Shown: piece by piece, positions 10,953 to 62,323 of the stretch
How the letters are laid out: each line of letters begins with the position of its first letter
Position numbering within the stretch: position 1 is the first letter of the stretch
DNA from: Candidatus Methylopumilus turicensis
GTDB taxonomy: Bacteria > Pseudomonadota > Gammaproteobacteria > Burkholderiales > Methylophilaceae
Direction of reading: 5' to 3'
Length of the DNA stretch: 64,000 nucleotides
Assembly: GCF_000953015.1 (NCBI RefSeq)
Contig: NZ_LN794158.1
Location: forward strand, 682,001 to 746,000
Notes under the pieces: model-generated
What the model saw: the letters and a program-made list of their open reading frames with translations, nothing else
Databases searched by the model: none
Told to the model about the DNA's origin: nothing
Program-made: the position numbers and the translations under genes

Positions 10953-13682
10953 ATGATCACACCTTCAGCTTTTGAATCAGTACCACAATACGCCTATGTT
11001 CAACATGCCATGGCTTGTAGCCCCTTTGTGAGCCGCTTGCTAGCGGGTGATGGCGAATTGCTGCCTGATCTGATGCAAAAAATAGCCACGAGATATAGCC
11101 GTGATGAAATGCTGGCTTATCTTGCAGGTCAATCGATTAGTGACGAAGCAACTTTGAAGCGTGCGCTACGTAAGCTAAGACAGCGTGTGATGTTGCGCAT
11201 TATCGTGCGTGACTTAAATGGCTTGGCGGACTTTGCCGAAGTGGTGCAGTCGGTGAGTGATTTAGCAGAAGTTGTTGTGCGTGTTGCATTAACCCATATT
11301 GAAGCTAGTCTCAAAGACACTTATGGCGAGCCAATTGGCGAGAGCGGCAAGCCTCAATCTTTGATTGTGATTGGCATGGGTAAGTTGGGTGGCTTTGAAC
11401 TCAATGTGTCTTCTGACATTGATTTGATTTTTGCGTTTGAAGAAGATGGTGAAACGAATGGTGCAGGCCTTAGTGATGGAGAGCAAGGTAAGCAAACATT
11501 AAGCAATCATGATTTTTTTACGCGCGTGGGAAAGAAGCTGATCGCTACGATTGATGAGATTACCCAAGATGGTTTTGTGTTCCGTGTGGATATGCGTTTA
11601 CGCCCTTATGGTTCAGAAGGCCCACTGGCTTGCAGTTTGGCGATGCTGGAAGAGTATTACCAAAATCAAGGCCGTGAGTGGGAGCGATACGCATGGATTA
11701 AAGGGCGTGTGATTGCAGGCCCCGCAAAAGTGATTGCGGATTTGTTACGACCTTTTGTGTTCCGTAAATACTTGGATTATGGCGCGTTTGCTTCAATGCG
11801 CGACTTGAAAGTGCAAATTCAGCGCGATGTGAACAAGCGTGATATGCATGACAACATCAAGCTAGGTCGGGGTGGTATTCGTGAAATTGAATTTATCGCC
11901 CAAGTTTTTCAGTTGATACGTGGCGGTCAAGATGTGAGTTTGCAGATTAGGCCTACCCTTGCCGTCATGGCTTTATTGCGCGATAAGAAGTTATTGCCAG
12001 AAAATACCGTGGATGAACTCTGTACTGCTTATGTATTTTTGCGTGATTTAGAACATAGGCTTCAGTATGCCGAAGACCAGCAAACTCAAACATTACCAAC
12101 CAATGACGAGGGTAAGGCGCGTCTTGCACTAGCGATGAATTGCGAAAGCTGGGATGCATTGCATGCCAAGATAGAAGCGCATCGCCAAATAGTGGACAAG
12201 CATTTTAGTGAGGTGTTTAGCGACCCGAAAGGTGAGCAGGCAGAAGATCTGCGTATTGTGGAAATTTGGCAGGGCACAATCGCAGATGAAGAAGTCGTCG
12301 CGCGGATTAAAAGCTTGGGCTATTTAGATGCAGCGCAAACCCTAAGCCGTTTGCGCGGATTAGCCCATAGTGCAAAATACAAGCAATTGCCAGAATTAAG
12401 CCGTCAGCGCTTTGATCAATTGATGCCGTTGGTGATTGCGTTGGCCGTGAAGGAAGATGATCCGGATACTGCCTTATTGCGTGTATCGGACTTGCTGGAA
12501 AATATCTGCCGCCGTGCCAGTTATTTGGCTTTGCTGGCCGAATATCCTGCCGCTTTAAATTTAGTGATTCGATTAACGTCTGCCAGCCCTTGGTTAGCAC
12601 AATATCTATCTCAACATCCTGTTTTATTAGATGAACTGCTAGATACGCAGCATTTATATGCTGTGCCAGATTTTGCCTTGATGCGCGAAGAACTCAAGCG
12701 ACGGTTGGCTGAAGTAGAAGGCGATGTTGAGCGTCAAATGGATGTCATGCGGCACTTTAAGCATGCAGCGGTATTTCGGTTCGCGGCAAAAGATGTGGCG
12801 GGAGAGTTGCCACTTGAAACCCTGTCTGATTACCTCAGTGAATTAGCCAACCTTATTTTGCAGGTTACGCTTGAAACAGTATGGCCCACACTTAAGGCTA
12901 AACATCGAGAGGTCCCTCAATTTGCGATTGTGGGCTACGGCAAACTAGGCGGTAAAGAGATAGGCTACGCCTCTGATTTGGATATTATTTTTCTCTACGA
13001 TGATGAAGCGCCTGATGCGGGGCAGATTTATGCGCGTTTTGGTCAACGCATTAACAATTGGCTGAATAGCCTTACTTCAGCAGGCATGCTTTACGAAACG
13101 GATATGCAACTCCGTCCCGATGGGGCTAGTGGCTTGTTAGTCAGCACTGTGGATGCGTTTAGTGCCTATCAGCAGCACAAAGCTTGGGTCTGGGAGCATC
13201 AGGCGATTACCCGTGCTAGGTTTAGCGCTGGTGATGTGGAGATAGGTAAAGCGTTTGAGCAGATTCGTTGCGATGTGATGACGCAGAAGCGTGACATGGC
13301 TACGCTGAAAAAAGAAGTGGTCGAGATGCGCCAAAAAATGCGTGCAGGGCACGTGATTCCTGCGGATGTGTTTGACCTGAAGCAAAGCTTAGGCGGCATT
13401 ATTGATGTGGAGTTTATGGTGCAATATCTAGTATTAGCGCACGCGCATCAACATCCTGAGCTGACTGAAAATATTGGGAATATTGCTTTGCTCGCAAGGC
13501 TTGCAAGTTTGGGTGTGATTGAAAAAGCACAAGCTGAGGCGGTGGCGAATGCTTATCGTGAGCTGCGTAAGAAACAACACGCGCTTCGCTTGCAAGGCCA
13601 CACTAAGGCGCAAGTGAGTCTCCATGAGGTCGCGCATCTTGTTGCGTCAGTAAAGTCCTTGTGGACGAAGTTGATGGCTTAA
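10953..13682 (+). CDS. glnE: Bifunctional glutamine synthetase adenylyltransferase/adenylyl-removing enzyme
   Basis: A 909-residue protein with two nucleotidyltransferase domains. The N-terminal deadenylylase domain has GMGKLGGFELNVSSDIDLIF (about residues 141-160). The C-terminal adenylylase domain has GYGKLGGKEI followed by SDLDIIFLYD (about 665-685). Both DxD metal sites are present. GlnE adds or removes AMP on glutamine synthetase under control of PII, tuning ammonia assimilation. The length is somewhat shorter than the E. coli protein (946), typical of betaproteobacteria. It is convergent with the RND operon, with only 15 nt between the stop codons and no clear terminator there. Confidence 0.95.
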   Translation: MITPSAFESVPQYAYVQHAMACSPFVSRLLAGDGELLPDLMQKIATRYSRDEMLAYLAGQSISDEATLKRALRKLRQRVMLRIIVRDLNGLADFAEVVQSVSDLAEVVVRVALTHIEASLKDTYGEPIGESGKPQSLIVIGMGKLGGFELNVSSDIDLIFAFEEDGETNGAGLSDGEQGKQTLSNHDFFTRVGKKLIATIDEITQDGFVFRVDMRLRPYGSEGPLACSLAMLEEYYQNQGREWERYAWIKGRVIAGPAKVIADLLRPFVFRKYLDYGAFASMRDLKVQIQRDVNKRDMHDNIKLGRGGIREIEFIAQVFQLIRGGQDVSLQIRPTLAVMALLRDKKLLPENTVDELCTAYVFLRDLEHRLQYAEDQQTQTLPTNDEGKARLALAMNCESWDALHAKIEAHRQIVDKHFSEVFSDPKGEQAEDLRIVEIWQGTIADEEVVARIKSLGYLDAAQTLSRLRGLAHSAKYKQLPELSRQRFDQLMPLVIALAVKEDDPDTALLRVSDLLENICRRASYLALLAEYPAALNLVIRLTSASPWLAQYLSQHPVLLDELLDTQHLYAVPDFALMREELKRRLAEVEGDVERQMDVMRHFKHAAVFRFAAKDVAGELPLETLSDYLSELANLILQVTLETVWPTLKAKHREVPQFAIVGYGKLGGKEIGYASDLDIIFLYDDEAPDAGQIYARFGQRINNWLNSLTSAGMLYETDMQLRPDGASGLLVSTVDAFSAYQQHKAWVWEHQAITRARFSAGDVEIGKAFEQIRCDVMTQKRDMATLKKEVVEMRQKMRAGHVIPADVFDLKQSLGGIIDVEFMVQYLVLAHAHQHPELTENIGNIALLARLASLGVIEKAQAEAVANAYRELRKKQHALRLQGHTKAQVSLHEVAHLVASVKSLWTKLMA

Positions 13683-26274: not shown

Positions 26275-26290
26275 GTTAGGAGATACTCCC
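26275..26290 (-). promoter_or_regulatory. GGAG-dyad motif, copy 1
   Basis: On the plus strand TTAGGAGATACTCCC contains the perfect dyad GGAG-ATA-CTCC. A wider 32-bp block from 26261, starting AGCTCCCGATAATCG, matches the block around copy 2 at 24 of 32 positions. It lies 20-35 nt beyond the stop of the PepSY gene, not in an obvious promoter position. Confidence 0.5.
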
Positions 26291-26308: not shown

Positions 26309-26812
26309 TTAATCTAAACCGATTTGGTAAACTTCTTCTTCGATTTCAACGATTTTACCTGTCACCGCATCGACTTCAACTTCCCATTCTTTGCCGTCAG
26401 TGCCTTTAATATCAAATTCGTATGAGATCGAACCGTCTGCTTCGATCGAAGTTTCTGTTTCGATGATCTCACCTGGTTTAGCCGCTAAAGCAATTTTCTT
26501 AGCATCTTCAAGTGACACTTTTGCTTTTGAAGCAAAACGCGGGTCTTTTATGTCAATCTCTTCTTCAGCTTCTGTTAGTTTGCCTGTTTTTGCATCACAT
26601 TCCACTTCCCACTCTTTACCGTCTTTACCCTTGATGTCGAACTCGTAGATTGGTTTACCATTTTCGATTTCAGCTTCTAATGAAATCACTTGGCCTGGGT
26701 ATTTTGCTAATGCTGCTTTTAAGCAAGTCTCTACTGCACCTTTGTGGGCAGGGGCTGCGAATGCTGGAAGGGTGACCAAAAGTGCTGCAAGTGCGAGTGA
26801 AATTTTCTTCAT
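26309..26812 (-). CDS. Periplasmic two-domain PepSY protein (lanpepsy-like)
   Basis: A 167-residue protein with a clear Sec signal peptide (KKISLALAALLVTLPAFA, cut near residue 19). The mature part has two PepSY-type repeats. Each contains the same core, YEFDIKG followed by DGKEWEVE and DAKTGK or DAVTGK (about residues 55-80 and 130-155), so it is an internal duplication. It is rich in Glu and Asp (EAEEEIDIKD, EIEEEV), fitting metal binding. Established knowledge: a periplasmic PepSY protein of similar size that binds lanthanides has been described from Methylobacillus flagellatus. Assignment of this protein to that role is inference from architecture and taxonomic context. Generic PepSY inhibitors or sensors are the alternative. 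Confidence 0.8.
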   Translation of the reverse strand: MKKISLALAALLVTLPAFAAPAHKGAVETCLKAALAKYPGQVISLEAEIENGKPIYEFDIKGKDGKEWEVECDAKTGKLTEAEEEIDIKDPRFASKAKVSLEDAKKIALAAKPGEIIETETSIEADGSISYEFDIKGTDGKEWEVEVDAVTGKIVEIEEEVYQIGLD

Positions 26813-26944
26813 AACTTTTCCTTAATTAAAAATACCAAATAGATAAAACGACTTAAGCCAAGGGCGGCATATTAAGTGGGTTCTTTTTACTGAGGAATAC
26901 GACTTATGACGGATAAGAAAAGTTTCAAACTTGGCAATGAATGT

Positions 26945-27490
26945 TTAATCAGGAAAAGGGGCTAGAAGCTCCTCTAAAAAGTAGGCGGACAGTTCGGTAC
27001 GATTTTTCAATTTGGCTTTGTGATAAACCGATGCCGCTTGGTCACGAATTGTTCTTTCTGAGGTACCGCGAAGACCAGCGATTTCCTCTAAGCTAAAGCC
27101 TTTAATGATCAAAAGCGCGACATCTGTTTCGGCTTGTGTTAAGCCCCATTGCTTGAACTGCTGGTGAATTTTGATAGATAAGCCGTCAATAAGTGTCTTG
27201 TTTTGATTTTGCCAATATTTAAGTTCGGTGGTGTGTTCAGAGATGTTTTCTTTGACCGCATTAATGCTTTTTTTGTCGAGCGTGTAAAAACCATAGCCTA
27301 TATATGCAATATAAATAATCACTAGGTAAATCAAAAATTCAATGGCTAAATGCCCAAGGTTAATTCTCTCGCGAATATCAAACGAGATATCAATCAAAAA
27401 CAAAATCACAATCAAAGCAATTGGCAGCCAAAGTTTGGTTAATAGCTGTTTAACCTTCAGTTCATGAAGATGAAAGTTAAACTTAGGCAA
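26945..27490 (-). CDS. Membrane-anchored LuxR-type transcription factor
   Basis: A 181-residue protein with two hydrophobic segments near the N terminus (about residues 20-37 and 49-71) followed by a short linker and a C-terminal LuxR/GerE-type helix-turn-helix (LTQAETDVALLIIKGFSLEEIAGLRGTS split over about residues 116-145, then RTIRDQAASVYHKAKLKNRTEL). No receiver or ligand domain is present, so the input is probably a membrane or partner-protein signal. Its start overlaps the end of the upstream zinc-ribbon membrane gene by 8 nt, so the two are translationally coupled. The PepSY gene lies 132 nt downstream in the same direction. Confidence 0.75.
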   Translation of the reverse strand: MPKFNFHLHELKVKQLLTKLWLPIALIVILFLIDISFDIRERINLGHLAIEFLIYLVIIYIAYIGYGFYTLDKKSINAVKENISEHTTELKYWQNQNKTLIDGLSIKIHQQFKQWGLTQAETDVALLIIKGFSLEEIAGLRGTSERTIRDQAASVYHKAKLKNRTELSAYFLEELLAPFPD

Positions 27491-27950
27491 GTGCTTGCCT
27501 TTGTATTTTTGCTTGCGCTAAAAATATCAAATGTTGATAGCAAAAAATGGTGCCAATCACTGGCAGTAACAAACTAATGAAAGCAATCGGCTGGGGCGCG
27601 TGTTTAGTCGCGGTTGATAGCTCATCTAATTTCGCGGTCAAAAAAATCTGAGCGTAAATAAAGGCGACCGTGGCAATGATGATAGGACTGATGCTGTGGT
27701 AAAAGTAATCAATTAAAGCCGCCCCGCCCAGTAGTGAAATACAGCAACACCAAATTAAAAATAAATGGCTTGTTTCTTTAATAAGGCTATTAAACGCAGA
27801 CGCACTTAAGGGTGCTCGCAAAGGTTGGAGATCTGCTGGGTCAGAATAAAGTGACTTTCCGCAGTGATGGCAATAATCGGCTTTTTTTAAGATAGATTGG
27901 TCGCAATAGGGGCAGAAGCCTGCAAATTGCTCGCTGAATACAATCGCCAA
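27483..27950 (-). CDS. Zinc-ribbon integral membrane protein
   Basis: A 155-residue protein of unknown function. Near the N terminus it has two CxxC pairs, CPYCDQSILKKADYCHHC (residues 13-30), forming a zinc ribbon. Three or four hydrophobic segments follow (about residues 60-80, 84-105 and 118-140), so it is an inner-membrane protein with a cytoplasmic zinc finger. It overlaps the membrane-anchored LuxR-type gene by 8 nt; the pair may sense something in or across the membrane. A GGAG-dyad motif lies 85-100 nt upstream of its ATG. Confidence 0.7.
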   Translation of the reverse strand: MAIVFSEQFAGFCPYCDQSILKKADYCHHCGKSLYSDPADLQPLRAPLSASAFNSLIKETSHLFLIWCCCISLLGGAALIDYFYHSISPIIIATVAFIYAQIFLTAKLDELSTATKHAPQPIAFISLLLPVIGTIFCYQHLIFLAQAKIQRQALA

Positions 27951-28034
27951 AATGATTACTCGGGTTAGAAAAAAGGTAACTAATACTATTCTGGCAAGTG
28001 TAGTTTGTATCGTGAGATGCTCCCGATTATTGGT

Positions 28035-28050
28035 GGGAGATTTTCCTAAT
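28035..28050 (+). promoter_or_regulatory. GGAG-dyad motif, copy 2
   Basis: GGGAGATTTTCCTAAT here matches copy 3 in front of the TonB receptor gene at 15 of 16 positions. It lies 85-100 nt upstream of the zinc-ribbon/LuxR operon. Just before it CTCCC (28020-28024) could pair with GGGAG, so a weak hairpin is an alternative reading. Confidence 0.55.
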
Positions 28051-28072
28051 TTCTGATTGGTGTTTTTGTTGT

Positions 28073-28205
28073 GTCACCCCGCATATTGGCGTGTGAATAA
28101 TCTGTGTTAGCCGATATATTCCACGGACAAGATCGCTGCGGTCTGATGCGGGGTCCATGTTGACTTTTGATATCAACATGGATGCCGCATCGAGTGCGGC
28201 ATGAC
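28073..28205. repeat. REP pair B with one 85-nt long arm
   Basis: The left arm (28073-28157) is 85 nt and the right arm (28179-28205) is the ordinary 27-nt unit, with a 21-nt spacer. The long arm equals a REP unit split by a 58-nt insertion. Its reverse complement closely matches the long arm of pair D, sharing TCAGACCGCAG, CCGTGGAATATAT and ATTATTCACACGCCA in the same order. Confidence 0.85.
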
Positions 28206-28300
28206 ATGGGTAGGGAGCAACATCATGTGCGGCATTAAAGCGAGAGAAAGGGATGATGCATCGACTGCTGAAAGACAGCGGGGTGTTTGGAATTGTAAAA

Positions 28301-28948
28301 CTAACTCTCAATCAACCCGCAGCGAATGGCCAGCCTCACCATTTCAACTGGGCTATTGATGCCGAGTTTTTGTTTAATGGTAGTTTGATAATTAGCCACA
28401 GTTTTTAAACTAATATTCAGTGTAGTAGCGATGCTACTTAAATCCACACCATCAACCAACATTCTAAAAATTTCAAACTCTCGCGCTGAAAGCGACTGCA
28501 TCGGGTCGCCCTGCGTGTTGTGCATTTGTAGGGCAATTTTGTGTGAGATTTCTGATCCCAAATAAGTCTGGCCTGTCATGACCCACTGAATCGCATTGCT
28601 CAGTTCTTCAGCGAGTCCGCTTTTAGCAAGGTAGCCTTTTGCGCCCGCTTTGAGTGCTTGGCTAGCAAAGGCAGCATTTTCATGCATGGACAGCACTAAA
28701 ATTTTGGCGGTAGGGTATCGCGCAATCATGCGTTTAATGGTTTCCATGCCGCCGATGCCTGGCATACTTAAATCCAGCACAGTGATGTCTGGTAAATGTT
28801 CACCAAAAATTTGATAAGCGCGTTCGCCGGTTTCCGCTTCAGCAACAACGCTAAATCTTTCGTCTTGCTCAAGCAGACGACGAACGCCAGCCCTCACCAC
28901 GGCGTGATCATCAACAAGCATTACTCGGATGGGGTTGTTTGTGCTCAT
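28301..28948 (-). CDS. NarL/FixJ-type response regulator
   Basis: A 215-residue two-component regulator. The receiver domain (residues 7-125) has the acidic pair D13-D14, the phosphorylatable aspartate D59 in TVLDLSMPG and the conserved lysine in GYLAKSG near 109. The C-terminal LuxR-type HTH is LSAREFEIFRMLVDG...IATTLNISLKTVANYQ (about residues 150-190). It lies 11 nt downstream of the histidine kinase gene, so the two form a kinase-regulator pair. A divergent TonB receptor gene starts behind the kinase, and the GGAG-dyad motif there and upstream of the zinc-ribbon operon is a candidate target. That assignment is inference. Confidence 0.92.
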   Translation of the reverse strand: MSTNNPIRVMLVDDHAVVRAGVRRLLEQDERFSVVAEAETGERAYQIFGEHLPDITVLDLSMPGIGGMETIKRMIARYPTAKILVLSMHENAAFASQALKAGAKGYLAKSGLAEELSNAIQWVMTGQTYLGSEISHKIALQMHNTQGDPMQSLSAREFEIFRMLVDGVDLSSIATTLNISLKTVANYQTTIKQKLGINSPVEMVRLAIRCGLIES

Positions 28949-28959
28949 TCGTTATTTTC

Positions 28960-30303
28960 TTAATAAGGCTTGATCGCTATCCAAGCGTTGATTTCCGTGC
29001 CGTTGCTAGACTGGATATTGAACGATCCGCCAAGCCCTTCAACGCGTTCACGCATGCCGGGTAAGCCAAAGCCGCTGCTTTGTTCAGCTAAAAAGCCTTT
29101 GCCGTTATCTTTCACCATCACCTGAAGTCCGTCCTTACCAGACTGAGTAAGCTTGAATACCTCTATATTGACTTTGGAGGCTTCCGCATGGCGCGCCACA
29201 TTAGTCAGGCTTTCTTGCACAAGACGATAAATAGCCACGCTGATCGCCTCGCTCAGGTCTTCATTAATGCCGCTTATCTTAATCTCGCAGGCAATGTTTT
29301 TGTGTCGCGATTTCCATGTATCCACTAAATCCTGCAAAGCAAGCGCAAGGCCTAGCTCATCAAGAATACCAGGGCGTAGCTGTTGGAGCAGGCCGCTCAC
29401 CATATCAATCAAGTGCTTTGAAAGTTGGCTAATGGCGATAGCACTTTCTTTAAGCTCAGGATATTTTTTATCAGCGACTTTCGAAATCACGCTTGCATCA
29501 GTATTAATCGCGGTAAGGCATTGGCCAAATTCATCATGTAACTCACGTGCTAGGTTTTTACGCTCTTCCTCTTGCAGGGTAATCAGTTGTTGAGTCAGTT
29601 TGTGATTTTGCAAAATGCTCAGTTGAAGCTTTTCCACCATGCGGTTAAATTTTTCGCCGATGCGCGATAACTCAGGCAGCTTAAAAGCGGGGAGGCGAGC
29701 CGCTAAATTGCCATTTTCAAGCTCATTGAGTGCATCTAAAATTTTATTCGTTGGCTTGAGTGCTTGCGATACCGCCCACATCACCATGAGGTTAACCAAC
29801 ACAAAAAATATCAACACAAGGGTGAGGAGGTCAGTAATTTGTTTCCACTTCTCGGCATATTCATACGTTGGATCAGGCGTAATTACCAACTCACCCAAAA
29901 TAATGCCCTGATATTCTAATTTGCGGACAGAAGGCTCCCATTGTTCAGTAAGCTGATTTAGCAAGCGCTCAAACCAAGCCGGCGCCTCATTCTGAAACGT
30001 CTGACCATCTTGGGTTTGGTTGCTATCAATCACCTTGCCCATGCTATCAATCAGCTCAATCTTTAAATGCCGCATGTGCTTGAGTTGCTGAAGATGAAAG
30101 CCGTTGGTTGCGAGCTTTCTTTGGGCTAAGTTAGGGTCGTTGAGAATCGCTGTGTCAAACAAATAAAGCACTAATTTCTCAGCCGAAACAACCTCTGCAT
30201 GCGCGTTTTGACGCGCATTGTTGAGCGATAAATAAGCGCCAGCAAACATCACCACCAAAAGAAGCGCGGTAATAATTAAGTTTAAGCGGAGTTTAAGGGT
30301 CAA
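28960..30303 (-). CDS. Membrane sensor histidine kinase (NarX/HisKA_3 type)
   Basis: A 447-residue inner-membrane sensor. Two membrane segments (about residues 7-25 and 155-178) flank a periplasmic domain of about 130 residues with no recognised ligand fold. HAMP follows (about 178-232), then the HisKA_3 dimerisation domain with phospho-acceptor histidine in LARELHDEFGQCL (about residue 255) and the ATPase domain with VKDNGKGF and GFGLPGMRERVEGLGG. The frame begins with TTG at 30303; AGGT lies 8 nt upstream. It is first in the kinase-regulator operon and divergent from the TonB receptor gene. The signal is unknown. Confidence 0.9.
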   Translation of the reverse strand: MTLKLRLNLIITALLLVVMFAGAYLSLNNARQNAHAEVVSAEKLVLYLFDTAILNDPNLAQRKLATNGFHLQQLKHMRHLKIELIDSMGKVIDSNQTQDGQTFQNEAPAWFERLLNQLTEQWEPSVRKLEYQGIILGELVITPDPTYEYAEKWKQITDLLTLVLIFFVLVNLMVMWAVSQALKPTNKILDALNELENGNLAARLPAFKLPELSRIGEKFNRMVEKLQLSILQNHKLTQQLITLQEEERKNLARELHDEFGQCLTAINTDASVISKVADKKYPELKESAIAISQLSKHLIDMVSGLLQQLRPGILDELGLALALQDLVDTWKSRHKNIACEIKISGINEDLSEAISVAIYRLVQESLTNVARHAEASKVNIEVFKLTQSGKDGLQVMVKDNGKGFLAEQSSGFGLPGMRERVEGLGGSFNIQSSNGTEINAWIAIKPY

Positions 30304-30387
30304 GGTTTGTTACCTAAAATGTAATCTAAAAACAGGTTCTCACTATAGCGCTGGGGGCTGATAAAAGGAAACAAAAGCCCCTAATTC

Positions 30388-30403
30388 GGGAGTTTTTCCT
30401 AAT
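30388..30403 (+). promoter_or_regulatory. GGAG-dyad motif, copy 3
   Basis: GGGAGTTTTTCCTAAT lies 81-96 nt ahead of the TonB receptor ATG and about 85 nt ahead of the divergent kinase gene. It differs from copy 2 at one position. A position this far upstream suits an activator site. Confidence 0.6.
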
Positions 30404-30483
30404 GCTTTACCAATTTGGCTTTGTTAAAGTGCTGGACATGTTAAAAGGCGTGCAAAACGTCTCATTGGAATTTACTCGGAGAT

Positions 30484-32883
30484 ATGATGGTGAACGTAAA
30501 ATTAAAACCGATTGCTTTAGCGGTTGCAGGCGTACTTGCAGCAACATCGGCTTATGCGGCAGATGCAATCAAAGCAGACAAAGTAGACGTGGTAAGCACC
30601 ACACCAATGCCAGGCATTGGTTTGTCGATTAATAAAGTGCCTGCCAATATTCAATTGGTGAATGGCGACGAATTTAAAAAACAACAAAGCGTGACCATTG
30701 CAGATTATATGAATAATAATTTGCAAGGCGTGAGCGTTGTAGATACACAAAATAACCCATTCCAGCCAGACGTGACTTTCCGTGGCTTCACAGCTTCACC
30801 ATTACTCGGCACGCCACAAGGCATGTCAGTTTATGTGGATGGTGTGCGTGTGAATGAATCATTTGGCGATGCAGTGAACTGGGACTTGATTCCAATGAAC
30901 GCAATTGCAAATATGTCGCTAATTCCTGGTACTAACCCGTTATTCGGTTTAAATACCTTGGGCGGCGCAATTTCAGTGCAAACGAAAAGTGGTCGTACCC
31001 ATCAAGGTGGTGCAGCTGAGCTTTCAGCAGGTTCATGGGGCCGTAAAACGGGTTCAGCTGAAATCGGCGGTGTGAGTAAAGACGGTTCAGTTGACTATTT
31101 CTTCTCAGCCAATGCGTTTAGCGAAGATGGCTGGCGCCAAGCTTCACCAACGGACGTTCGTCAGTTCTTTGGTAAGGTGGGTTGGCAAAATGAAACTACT
31201 AAAATCGATTTAAGCTACACCAATGCCAACAACGACATGATTGGTAACGGCTTGGTGCAACGTGAATTAATGCAAACGCTTGGTCGTAGCACAATCCATA
31301 CGAAGCCGGATCAAACTAGAAATACGCTTTCGTTCCTAAATCTATCTGCAAGCCACTGGTTTAACGATGATGTGATGTTTAGTGGTAATGCTTATTACCG
31401 TAATTCAAAACGTAAGACTTTGAATGGTGATGTGAATGATGGTTATACTGGAGACGACACCAATTTAGCCGCATACCAAAGTGACTGTTTAGCTAATACT
31501 GGCGGTGATGCAGATGAATGGTGTTCTGGTGCAATTAATCGCAGTTCTACTAAGCAGCAATCTTATGGTTTGAATGGCCAGTTAACATTTAATCAAGCGC
31601 TTGCTGGAAAATCTAACCAATTTGTTATTGGTGCATCTTATGACATATCTAAAATCAAATTTAATCAATCTGAACAGCTTGGTAGTATTAATGCTTCAAG
31701 AGGGATTGATCCACTTTACGATGCTGAAATCACTACCAACCTTCATGGTAAAACAAAGACTTGGAGTTTGTTTGGTACAAATACATTGTCATTGAATGAT
31801 TATTGGCATGTCACCGGTTCGGCCCGCTATAACCACGTTAAAGTGGATAATGTGGATCAAATTAATGCACCAGGTCAGTCATATACATTACTACCTAGTG
31901 ATCCGAATTATTTGGCTAGTGATGAAACTTTAACAGGCAATCATACTTTTTCACGTATTAACCCAGCGCTTGGCTTGAACTTTACGCCGACTAAAGATTT
32001 GACGGTTTACGGCTCCTATAACGAAGGTAACCGCGCGCCAACTTCTATGGAACTAGGTTGTGCAAATCAATATGCACCATGTAAATTACCAAATGCGATG
32101 GCCGGTGATCCACCTCTGAAGCAAGTGGTCGCTAGAACATTCGAGGGTGGTTTGCGTGGTAATTTAACGGAAGATATTCGTTGGTCTGCAGCTGTTTATC
32201 GCACAGAAAATAGTAATGATATTCAATTTATTACTACGCCTTCAACCATCAATAACATGGGCTATTTTGATAACGTTGGTAAAACACGTCGTGTGGGGAT
32301 CGATACCAGCTTGGCAGGTAAGTTAGGGCAATTTGGTTGGAATGTTGGATATAGTTATGTAGATGCAACCTATCAAAATGACTTAAGCTTGGCGAATGAA
32401 GTAAATTCAACAGCTTACACGGACGGTGGTGGTAATGACGTTATAAATGTTCGAAAAGGTGATCGTTTGGCAAACATTCCAGCGCATCAACTTAAGGTGC
32501 GTTTGACTTACGCTGTCACACCAGATTGGACTGTAGGCTCTAACATTACAGCCTTCTCAGATCGTTACATGCGTGGTAATGAAAATAATAGTCATGTTGC
32601 TAATACCCCAGGCTTTTATGAAGGTAATGGCAAGGTCGCTGGCTATGCGATTGTTAACTTAGATACACGTTACAACATCGGTAATGGGTGGAGTGTGTTT
32701 GGTAAAGCCATCAACGTATTTGATACTGAGTACAACAACGGTGGTTTGATGGGTGAAACCATGTTCACATCAAACGGTTCATTTGATGCAAACGGCAATC
32801 CATCAGGCTTCTTCTCTCCTGGCGCACCACGTGCTGGTTGGGTAGGTGTGCGTTATGAGTTTTTAGCACCAAAAGCACAATAA
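30484..32883 (+). CDS. TonB-dependent outer membrane receptor
   Basis: A 799-residue outer-membrane gated channel. The signal peptide (PIALAVAGVLAATSAYA) is cut near residue 25. The plug domain follows (about 40-165) with SVYVDGVRVNESFGD and GTNPLFGLNTLGGAISVQTKSG, then a 22-strand-type barrel ending in GWVGVRYEFLAPKAQ. The substrate cannot be told from sequence. A stretch at residues 275-400 has lower GC and codon use less like the neighbours, perhaps a variable surface loop. ATG at 30484 or 30487 both fit; GGAG precedes. Neighbours are a divergent kinase and, 3.7 kb away, a PepSY protein, which suggests metal uptake. Confidence 0.9.
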   Translation: MMVNVKLKPIALAVAGVLAATSAYAADAIKADKVDVVSTTPMPGIGLSINKVPANIQLVNGDEFKKQQSVTIADYMNNNLQGVSVVDTQNNPFQPDVTFRGFTASPLLGTPQGMSVYVDGVRVNESFGDAVNWDLIPMNAIANMSLIPGTNPLFGLNTLGGAISVQTKSGRTHQGGAAELSAGSWGRKTGSAEIGGVSKDGSVDYFFSANAFSEDGWRQASPTDVRQFFGKVGWQNETTKIDLSYTNANNDMIGNGLVQRELMQTLGRSTIHTKPDQTRNTLSFLNLSASHWFNDDVMFSGNAYYRNSKRKTLNGDVNDGYTGDDTNLAAYQSDCLANTGGDADEWCSGAINRSSTKQQSYGLNGQLTFNQALAGKSNQFVIGASYDISKIKFNQSEQLGSINASRGIDPLYDAEITTNLHGKTKTWSLFGTNTLSLNDYWHVTGSARYNHVKVDNVDQINAPGQSYTLLPSDPNYLASDETLTGNHTFSRINPALGLNFTPTKDLTVYGSYNEGNRAPTSMELGCANQYAPCKLPNAMAGDPPLKQVVARTFEGGLRGNLTEDIRWSAAVYRTENSNDIQFITTPSTINNMGYFDNVGKTRRVGIDTSLAGKLGQFGWNVGYSYVDATYQNDLSLANEVNSTAYTDGGGNDVINVRKGDRLANIPAHQLKVRLTYAVTPDWTVGSNITAFSDRYMRGNENNSHVANTPGFYEGNGKVAGYAIVNLDTRYNIGNGWSVFGKAINVFDTEYNNGGLMGETMFTSNGSFDANGNPSGFFSPGAPRAGWVGVRYEFLAPKAQ

Positions 32884-62049: not shown

Positions 62050-62323
62050 TTGAGTTCTCGAAGGCTGTTTTCTGACGTAGATTAAATAAAATATTAAATT
62101 AAGTTAAATCTTTAAGTATCGGTTTTTTAATGGTTCAATTCTTTCACACTTTTAATTTTTTTCATGACTTTATTGAGTGTCGTCATGAAAATCATGAGCA
62201 ATGTTTCCGTGTTTTTGCACTATTGCTTAATAAGGGTCGGGCGCACTATTTGAATCACGTTGCATGCAGACAAATTATATAAATGCGGTAACGTTTTTTT
62301 AAACTATAATTAGGAGATACACC
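62050..62323. other. Divergent region between the GGDEF-EAL gene and pqqA
   Basis: An AT-rich gap. Besides the inverted repeat listed separately, I see TTATAT and TATATA near 62275-62281 as candidate -10 boxes for pqqA but no -35 at proper spacing. Another TATAAT near 62305 is too close to the pqqA start to serve. The promoter is therefore unresolved. Confidence 0.4.
62160..62190. promoter_or_regulatory. 9-bp inverted repeat upstream of pqqA
   Basis: TTTCATGAC (62160-62168) and GTCATGAAA (62182-62190) form a perfect dyad with a 13-nt centre, followed by a third half-like ATCATGAG. Size and spacing suit a dimeric regulator. It lies about 135 nt upstream of pqqA and 110 nt upstream of the divergent GGDEF-EAL gene. 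Confidence 0.5.

Follow-up and report, generated by a model that had tools for sequence, protein, structure and literature searches.

A candidate lanthanide acquisition and sensing locus with an MxaY-type kinase in a XoxF-only methylotroph

Introduction

Among the described systems closest to the locus analysed here is MxaY of Methylotuvimicrobium buryatense (with MxaB), a kinase whose LapD/MoxY sensor domain has been published (PMC6115532). In methanotrophs, two substitutions in MxaY kinases have been linked to a broken lanthanide switch, namely E147G (M. buryatense; PMC5018670) and E37K (Methylomonas LW13; PMC5874918). PedS2/PedR2 of Pseudomonas putida is likewise a two-component system for a lanthanide switch, although its published sensor domain differs from LapD/MoxY (PMC6115532). 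The TonB-dependent receptors LanA and LutH are tied to lanthanide-linked genes, and LanP (lanpepsy, Mfla_0908) of Methylobacillus flagellatus is a secreted, acidic protein of about 150 mature residues with two PepSY domains, described as La-induced and lanthanide-binding (PMC11899968, PMC12482762).

In the present study we compared with these systems a six-gene locus located within a window of 64,000 bases (the whole stretch of DNA analysed), which covers bases 682001-746000 of a genome assembled as one contig (1,754,988 bases). All positions given below without further label are those of the window.

Results

Gene content of the locus and its host

All six open reading frames that the initial annotation had placed at 26309-32883 are present:

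26309..26812, minus strand: secreted, two-domain, LanP-like PepSY protein (Pfam, phmmer, tree, composition, AlphaFold2)
26945..27490, minus strand: membrane-anchored LuxR-type HTH protein, LIC13292-like (two hydrophobic segments, C-terminal GerE)
27483..27950, minus strand: zinc-ribbon protein with N-terminal ribbon (three hydrophobic segments; overlaps the HTH gene)
28301..28948, minus strand: NarL/LuxR-type response regulator (Pfam Response_reg and GerE)
28960..30303, minus strand: MxaY-type sensor histidine kinase (LapD_MoxY_N periplasmic domain; residues E37 and E151)
30484..32883, plus strand: TonB-dependent outer-membrane receptor, divergent from the kinase (Pfam Plug and TonB barrel; receptor tree)

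The families, all of which are already known, were recovered with Pfam for five of the genes, while the Zn_Ribbon_1 match of the zinc-ribbon protein (22.1 bits) lies just below the Pfam cut-off of 25. The kinase displays a HAMP, HisKA_3 and HATPase architecture, plus LapD_MoxY_N at 24.6 bits (25-bit cut-off). The plug and barrel found in the receptor also occur in LanA and LutH, beside which it is set by description; unlike them, it is encoded in a locus without lut-type ABC genes. Promoter and terminator scans of the region gave results at chance level. The gap between the regulator and zinc-ribbon genes (28060-28240) contains a 19-base inverted repeat (28145-28191) resembling a dispersed repeat element, as well as a 94-aa open reading frame that looks spurious.

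The host is a freshwater, methanol-using methylotroph with XoxF and without MxaF. Its genome encodes one XoxF, which carries the DEWDYDG (DYD) lanthanide signature and has an adjoining XoxJ-like gene, and no second methanol dehydrogenase or MxaF-like match over the family cut-off was detected in it. The presence of pqqABC in the window was also confirmed, with pqqA (62324) and pqqB inside and an open reading frame from 63433 that reads as pqqC (pqqA and pqqC were identified by eye).

The PepSY protein and its relation to LanP

The PepSY protein (167 aa) has a signal peptide, and 36 of its 147 mature residues are D or E. Two Pfam PepSY domains (102.8 bits) extend across the whole mature part, as required for LanP, and the AlphaFold2 model has a pLDDT of 88.9. 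Its two repeats had been described as near-identical, which holds for their cores (YEFDIKGKDGKEWEVECDAKTGKL and YEFDIKGTDGKEWEVEVDAVTGKI) but not outside them. In a fold search other PepSY folds matched only modestly, and the LanP structures 9vy3-9vya were not among the matches listed.

Alignment bore out part of the proposed likeness to lanpepsy. The genome that we take to be M. flagellatus KT (G062) carries two identical PepSY copies, 143 kb apart, whose protein sequence equals the chain deposited as PDB 9vy3 (LanP). The window protein aligns with this chain from end to end (phmmer, E 3e-46; about 52% identity), but in the PepSY tree it falls within a clade of 26 rows, with Mfla_0908 in the other (support 97/96), and it differs from LanP at several acidic positions. 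Some genomes hold members of both clades, i.e. the window type and true LanP. On sequence grounds, the window protein is placed as a member of the sister clade, without orthology to lanpepsy. Acidic positions common to both clades are E57, D59, D64, E69, E71, E81, E83 and E85, and further E120, E124, E132, D134, E146 and D148; E48, E67, E144 and E158 are mainly acidic in the clade of the window protein only. The sister-clade placement and the acidic differences count against a lanthanide function.

Most Methylophilaceae encode a PepSY protein resembling that of the window (105 of 150 genomes with a match). LanP-clade genes lie one gene from xoxF in six Methylophilus loci, in Methylotenera versatilis 7 and in others.

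The kinase and its genomic neighbours

The E37/E147 numbering was read from Methylomonadaceae relatives, in which the second glutamate of DPLDEIxEVW corresponds to residue 147 and residue 37 falls within QARxxVxxE. The window kinase carries both switch glutamates, as E37 and E151 (= M. buryatense E147); the DPxxExxE motif is missing from a paralogue encoded elsewhere in the host genome. The kinase also shares with MxaY the LapD/MoxY sensor, HisKA_3 and an adjacent NarL-type regulator; in contrast to the MxaY system, the host has no MxaF to switch, and the dyads described below point to uptake-type genes.

Close relatives of the kinase adjoin mxaFJG, mxaD/C/K/L, xoxF, LanP or a TonB receptor (the mxa labels reflect similarity and gene order, not named annotation), and nearly all of them are paired with the regulator. 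In 15 of the 64 Methylophilaceae genomes having both, the kinase and PepSY genes are no more than 13 kb apart, against about 1.3 expected (a rough estimate, with positions read by hand). In M. buryatense the regulator adjacent to MxaY proved dispensable for the switch (PMC5018670), which counts against a lanthanide function of the locus.

A dyad shared within the locus and across methylotrophs

The dyad reported to tie the locus together was confirmed as a 15-base sequence, TTAGGARAWWCTCCC, present in three exact copies starting at 26276, 28035 and 30388:

26276..26290, plus strand: dyad copy 1, TTAGGAGATACTCCC, just downstream of the PepSY gene
28035..28049, minus strand: dyad copy 2, TTAGGAAAATCTCCC, upstream of the zinc-ribbon/HTH/PepSY genes
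30388..30402, minus strand: dyad copy 3, TTAGGAAAAACTCCC, between the divergent kinase and receptor genes

No further exact match was found genome-wide, and the one single-mismatch match in the genome lies inside a glycosyltransferase-type gene. With up to two mismatches allowed, the window contains four matches against 0.59 expected, and none of the shuffles reached four; the fourth, at 62310, was rejected as a dyad, being only the Shine-Dalgarno region of pqqA. The consensus was derived from these three copies, so that their exactness cannot by itself serve as a test; what counts is whether the dyad is conserved in other genomes. Relatives retain all three positions, and copy 3 shows hardly any variation among six genomes of the genus, irrespective of receptor type. 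Copy 1 lies between the ends of two convergent genes, where it is also found in three relatives, and has no evident promoter role. Elsewhere in the host genome, a near-perfect dyad lies just upstream of a gene for a YncE-like beta-propeller (G000:C1:78028; L224/L257). A dyad-like match near xoxF (G000:1551634) is inside a neighbouring hydrolase gene and was not counted. No dyad was found upstream of xoxF in this genome, which counts against a lanthanide function.

Of the 35 distinct loci, 26 carry the generalised dyad YRGGARAWWYTCCY at 57-130 bp before the kinase gene, against 0.7 expected from control loci. With a matrix trained without the genus of the host, the score of the window site was matched or exceeded by about 0.1% of 899 other upstream regions. 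The same matrix revealed sites upstream of (i) lanP in Methylobacillus glycogenes, arboreus and caricis, and (ii) TonB receptors in Methylophaga-type and OM43-like genomes, and in the OM43-like genomes repeated dyads lie between divergent PepSY and receptor genes. M. flagellatus has dyads upstream of its kinase gene, of moxR and of a gene for a FecA-like receptor; the corresponding targets in M. mobilis 13 are the kinase gene, a receptor gene and a YncE/SoxYZ-like/MxaD-like gene group. The regulator probably binds this dyad. No dyad was detected upstream of M. flagellatus lanP, which again counts against a lanthanide function.

In Methylophilus species a conserved half-dyad (e.g. TTTTCGGAAAAATTCCYYATCTGGCCC) occurs about 130-240 bp upstream of xoxF; in L067, L072, L077, L078 and L082 the half-dyads sit around 12080-12110.

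Conservation of the gene set

Conserved co-occurrence of the six genes had been suggested as a check. It did not bear out a single conserved set, the core consisting of the TonB receptor, kinase, regulator and LanP-type PepSY protein. Outside the genus of the host, only one relative has the zinc-ribbon/HTH pair beside PepSY, and a relative of the zinc-ribbon protein (29% identity) is encoded divergently from the kinase in another genus. Among ten sampled genomes of the genus, four contain both the HTH and PepSY genes and six, some of them incomplete MAGs, contain neither. Two genomes without these genes (G058 and G067) carry another receptor type at the same place (41% identical), next to kinases 67-88% identical, and in the tree their receptors nest among those of genomes without LanP-type proteins. 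Receptor type tracks the presence of PepSY: four changes were counted on a tree of sampled receptors at the locus, compared with 9.8 after shuffling, and none of 500 shuffles gave so low a count. This tree replaced a test, across the family, of receptor identity against PepSY presence, since identity is blurred by the rapid evolution of small genomes.

In another genus, independent PepSY-TonB-kinase-regulator arrangements occupy the same position between tilS and purT. In many Methylophilaceae the receptor has no kinase or dyad beside it, which counts against a lanthanide function. Within the accA-tilS ... purT-globin block (e.g. L244-L259), tilS and purT flank a TonB receptor of this family in most of the Methylophilaceae genera examined, including cases in which the kinase is missing.

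Discussion

The initial annotation suggested that the locus senses and imports lanthanides or another metal. This view is strengthened (i) by the MxaY-type kinase with both switch residues, (ii) by the dyad as a conserved putative operator of the kinase across the family, (iii) by the xoxF, mxa and lanP neighbours in other genomes, and (iv) by the joint gain and loss of receptor type and PepSY cassette; it is qualified in that the PepSY protein is a sister-clade member, not the lanpepsy orthologue, and that the six genes are not conserved as one set. Drawing on the observed gene content, homology, residue conservation, operator conservation and co-localisation, we consider it probable that the locus serves lanthanide acquisition and sensing, controlled by an MxaY-type system, in a XoxF-only methylotroph, with a lanthanide as the presumed ligand.

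According to this model, a free or chelated lanthanide would pass the outer membrane through the TonB receptor, and the acidic LanP-like PepSY protein would bind or buffer it in the periplasm en route to XoxF. The kinase would sense lanthanide status via its periplasmic LapD/MoxY domain and phosphorylate the NarL-type regulator, which in turn would bind the dyad. The genes controlled in this way would be the divergently oriented kinase and receptor genes, those of the zinc-ribbon, HTH and PepSY proteins, and the distant YncE-like propeller gene. By analogy with M. buryatense, the kinase may be active at lanthanide scarcity, and the zinc-ribbon/HTH pair may play an accessory role.

It is rather unlikely that the locus serves methanol dehydrogenase in general, with a kinase sensing methanol, formaldehyde or the state of the dehydrogenase and a receptor importing a cofactor such as PQQ. 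The mxa genes beside kinase relatives, and the dyads preceding moxR in M. flagellatus and the YncE-like propeller gene in the host and in M. mobilis, would fit this explanation, as would E. coli yncE, which neighbours the PQQ receptor gene pqqU (yncD). However, the cell has its own pqq genes, and no PDB chain matched the receptor (phmmer at E 0.001), although PqqU is represented by a published structure (PMC12124388); moreover LanP, a relative of the PepSY protein, binds lanthanides (PMC11899968, PMC12482762).

It appears improbable that the locus takes up some other metal (iron or calcium-type), with PepSY acting as an acidic buffer for metals in general. The NCBIfam families that score best with the receptor are those of siderophore/heme receptors, every one of them far below cut-off, and PepSY domains were found in non-methylotroph controls, but methanol dehydrogenase genes, LanP genes and receptors make up most of the neighbours and operator targets in relatives. 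There is very little likelihood that a PepSY cassette was inserted by chance beside an unrelated kinase/receptor locus: its absence from six of the ten sampled genomes of the genus (some incomplete) is what chance would allow, whereas the shared dyads, the change of receptor type with the cassette and the independent arrangements at the tilS-purT place speak against it.

Our literature search found no description of this gene set as one system, in agreement with the initial annotation, nor of the operator, of a link between LanP-type and MxaY-type components, or of a published operator of the lanthanide switch. More tentatively than for the locus itself, we suggest that in XoxF-only methylotrophs the MxaY system may act as a dedicated regulator of lanthanide acquisition with a dyad operator, the receptor and LanP-type protein possibly forming a matched pair swapped together and the zinc-ribbon/HTH proteins a second layer of control.

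The conserved dyad would link the operator of an MxaY-type switch, the role of LanP and a lanthanide receptor of Methylophilaceae, and it predicts a regulon in many culturable species, which makes it directly testable. Its sharing within the locus thus offers a testable model for how methylotrophs may gather rare earths, and the genes named here are candidates for lanthanide handling in abundant freshwater and marine methylotrophs, with relevance to rare-earth recovery.
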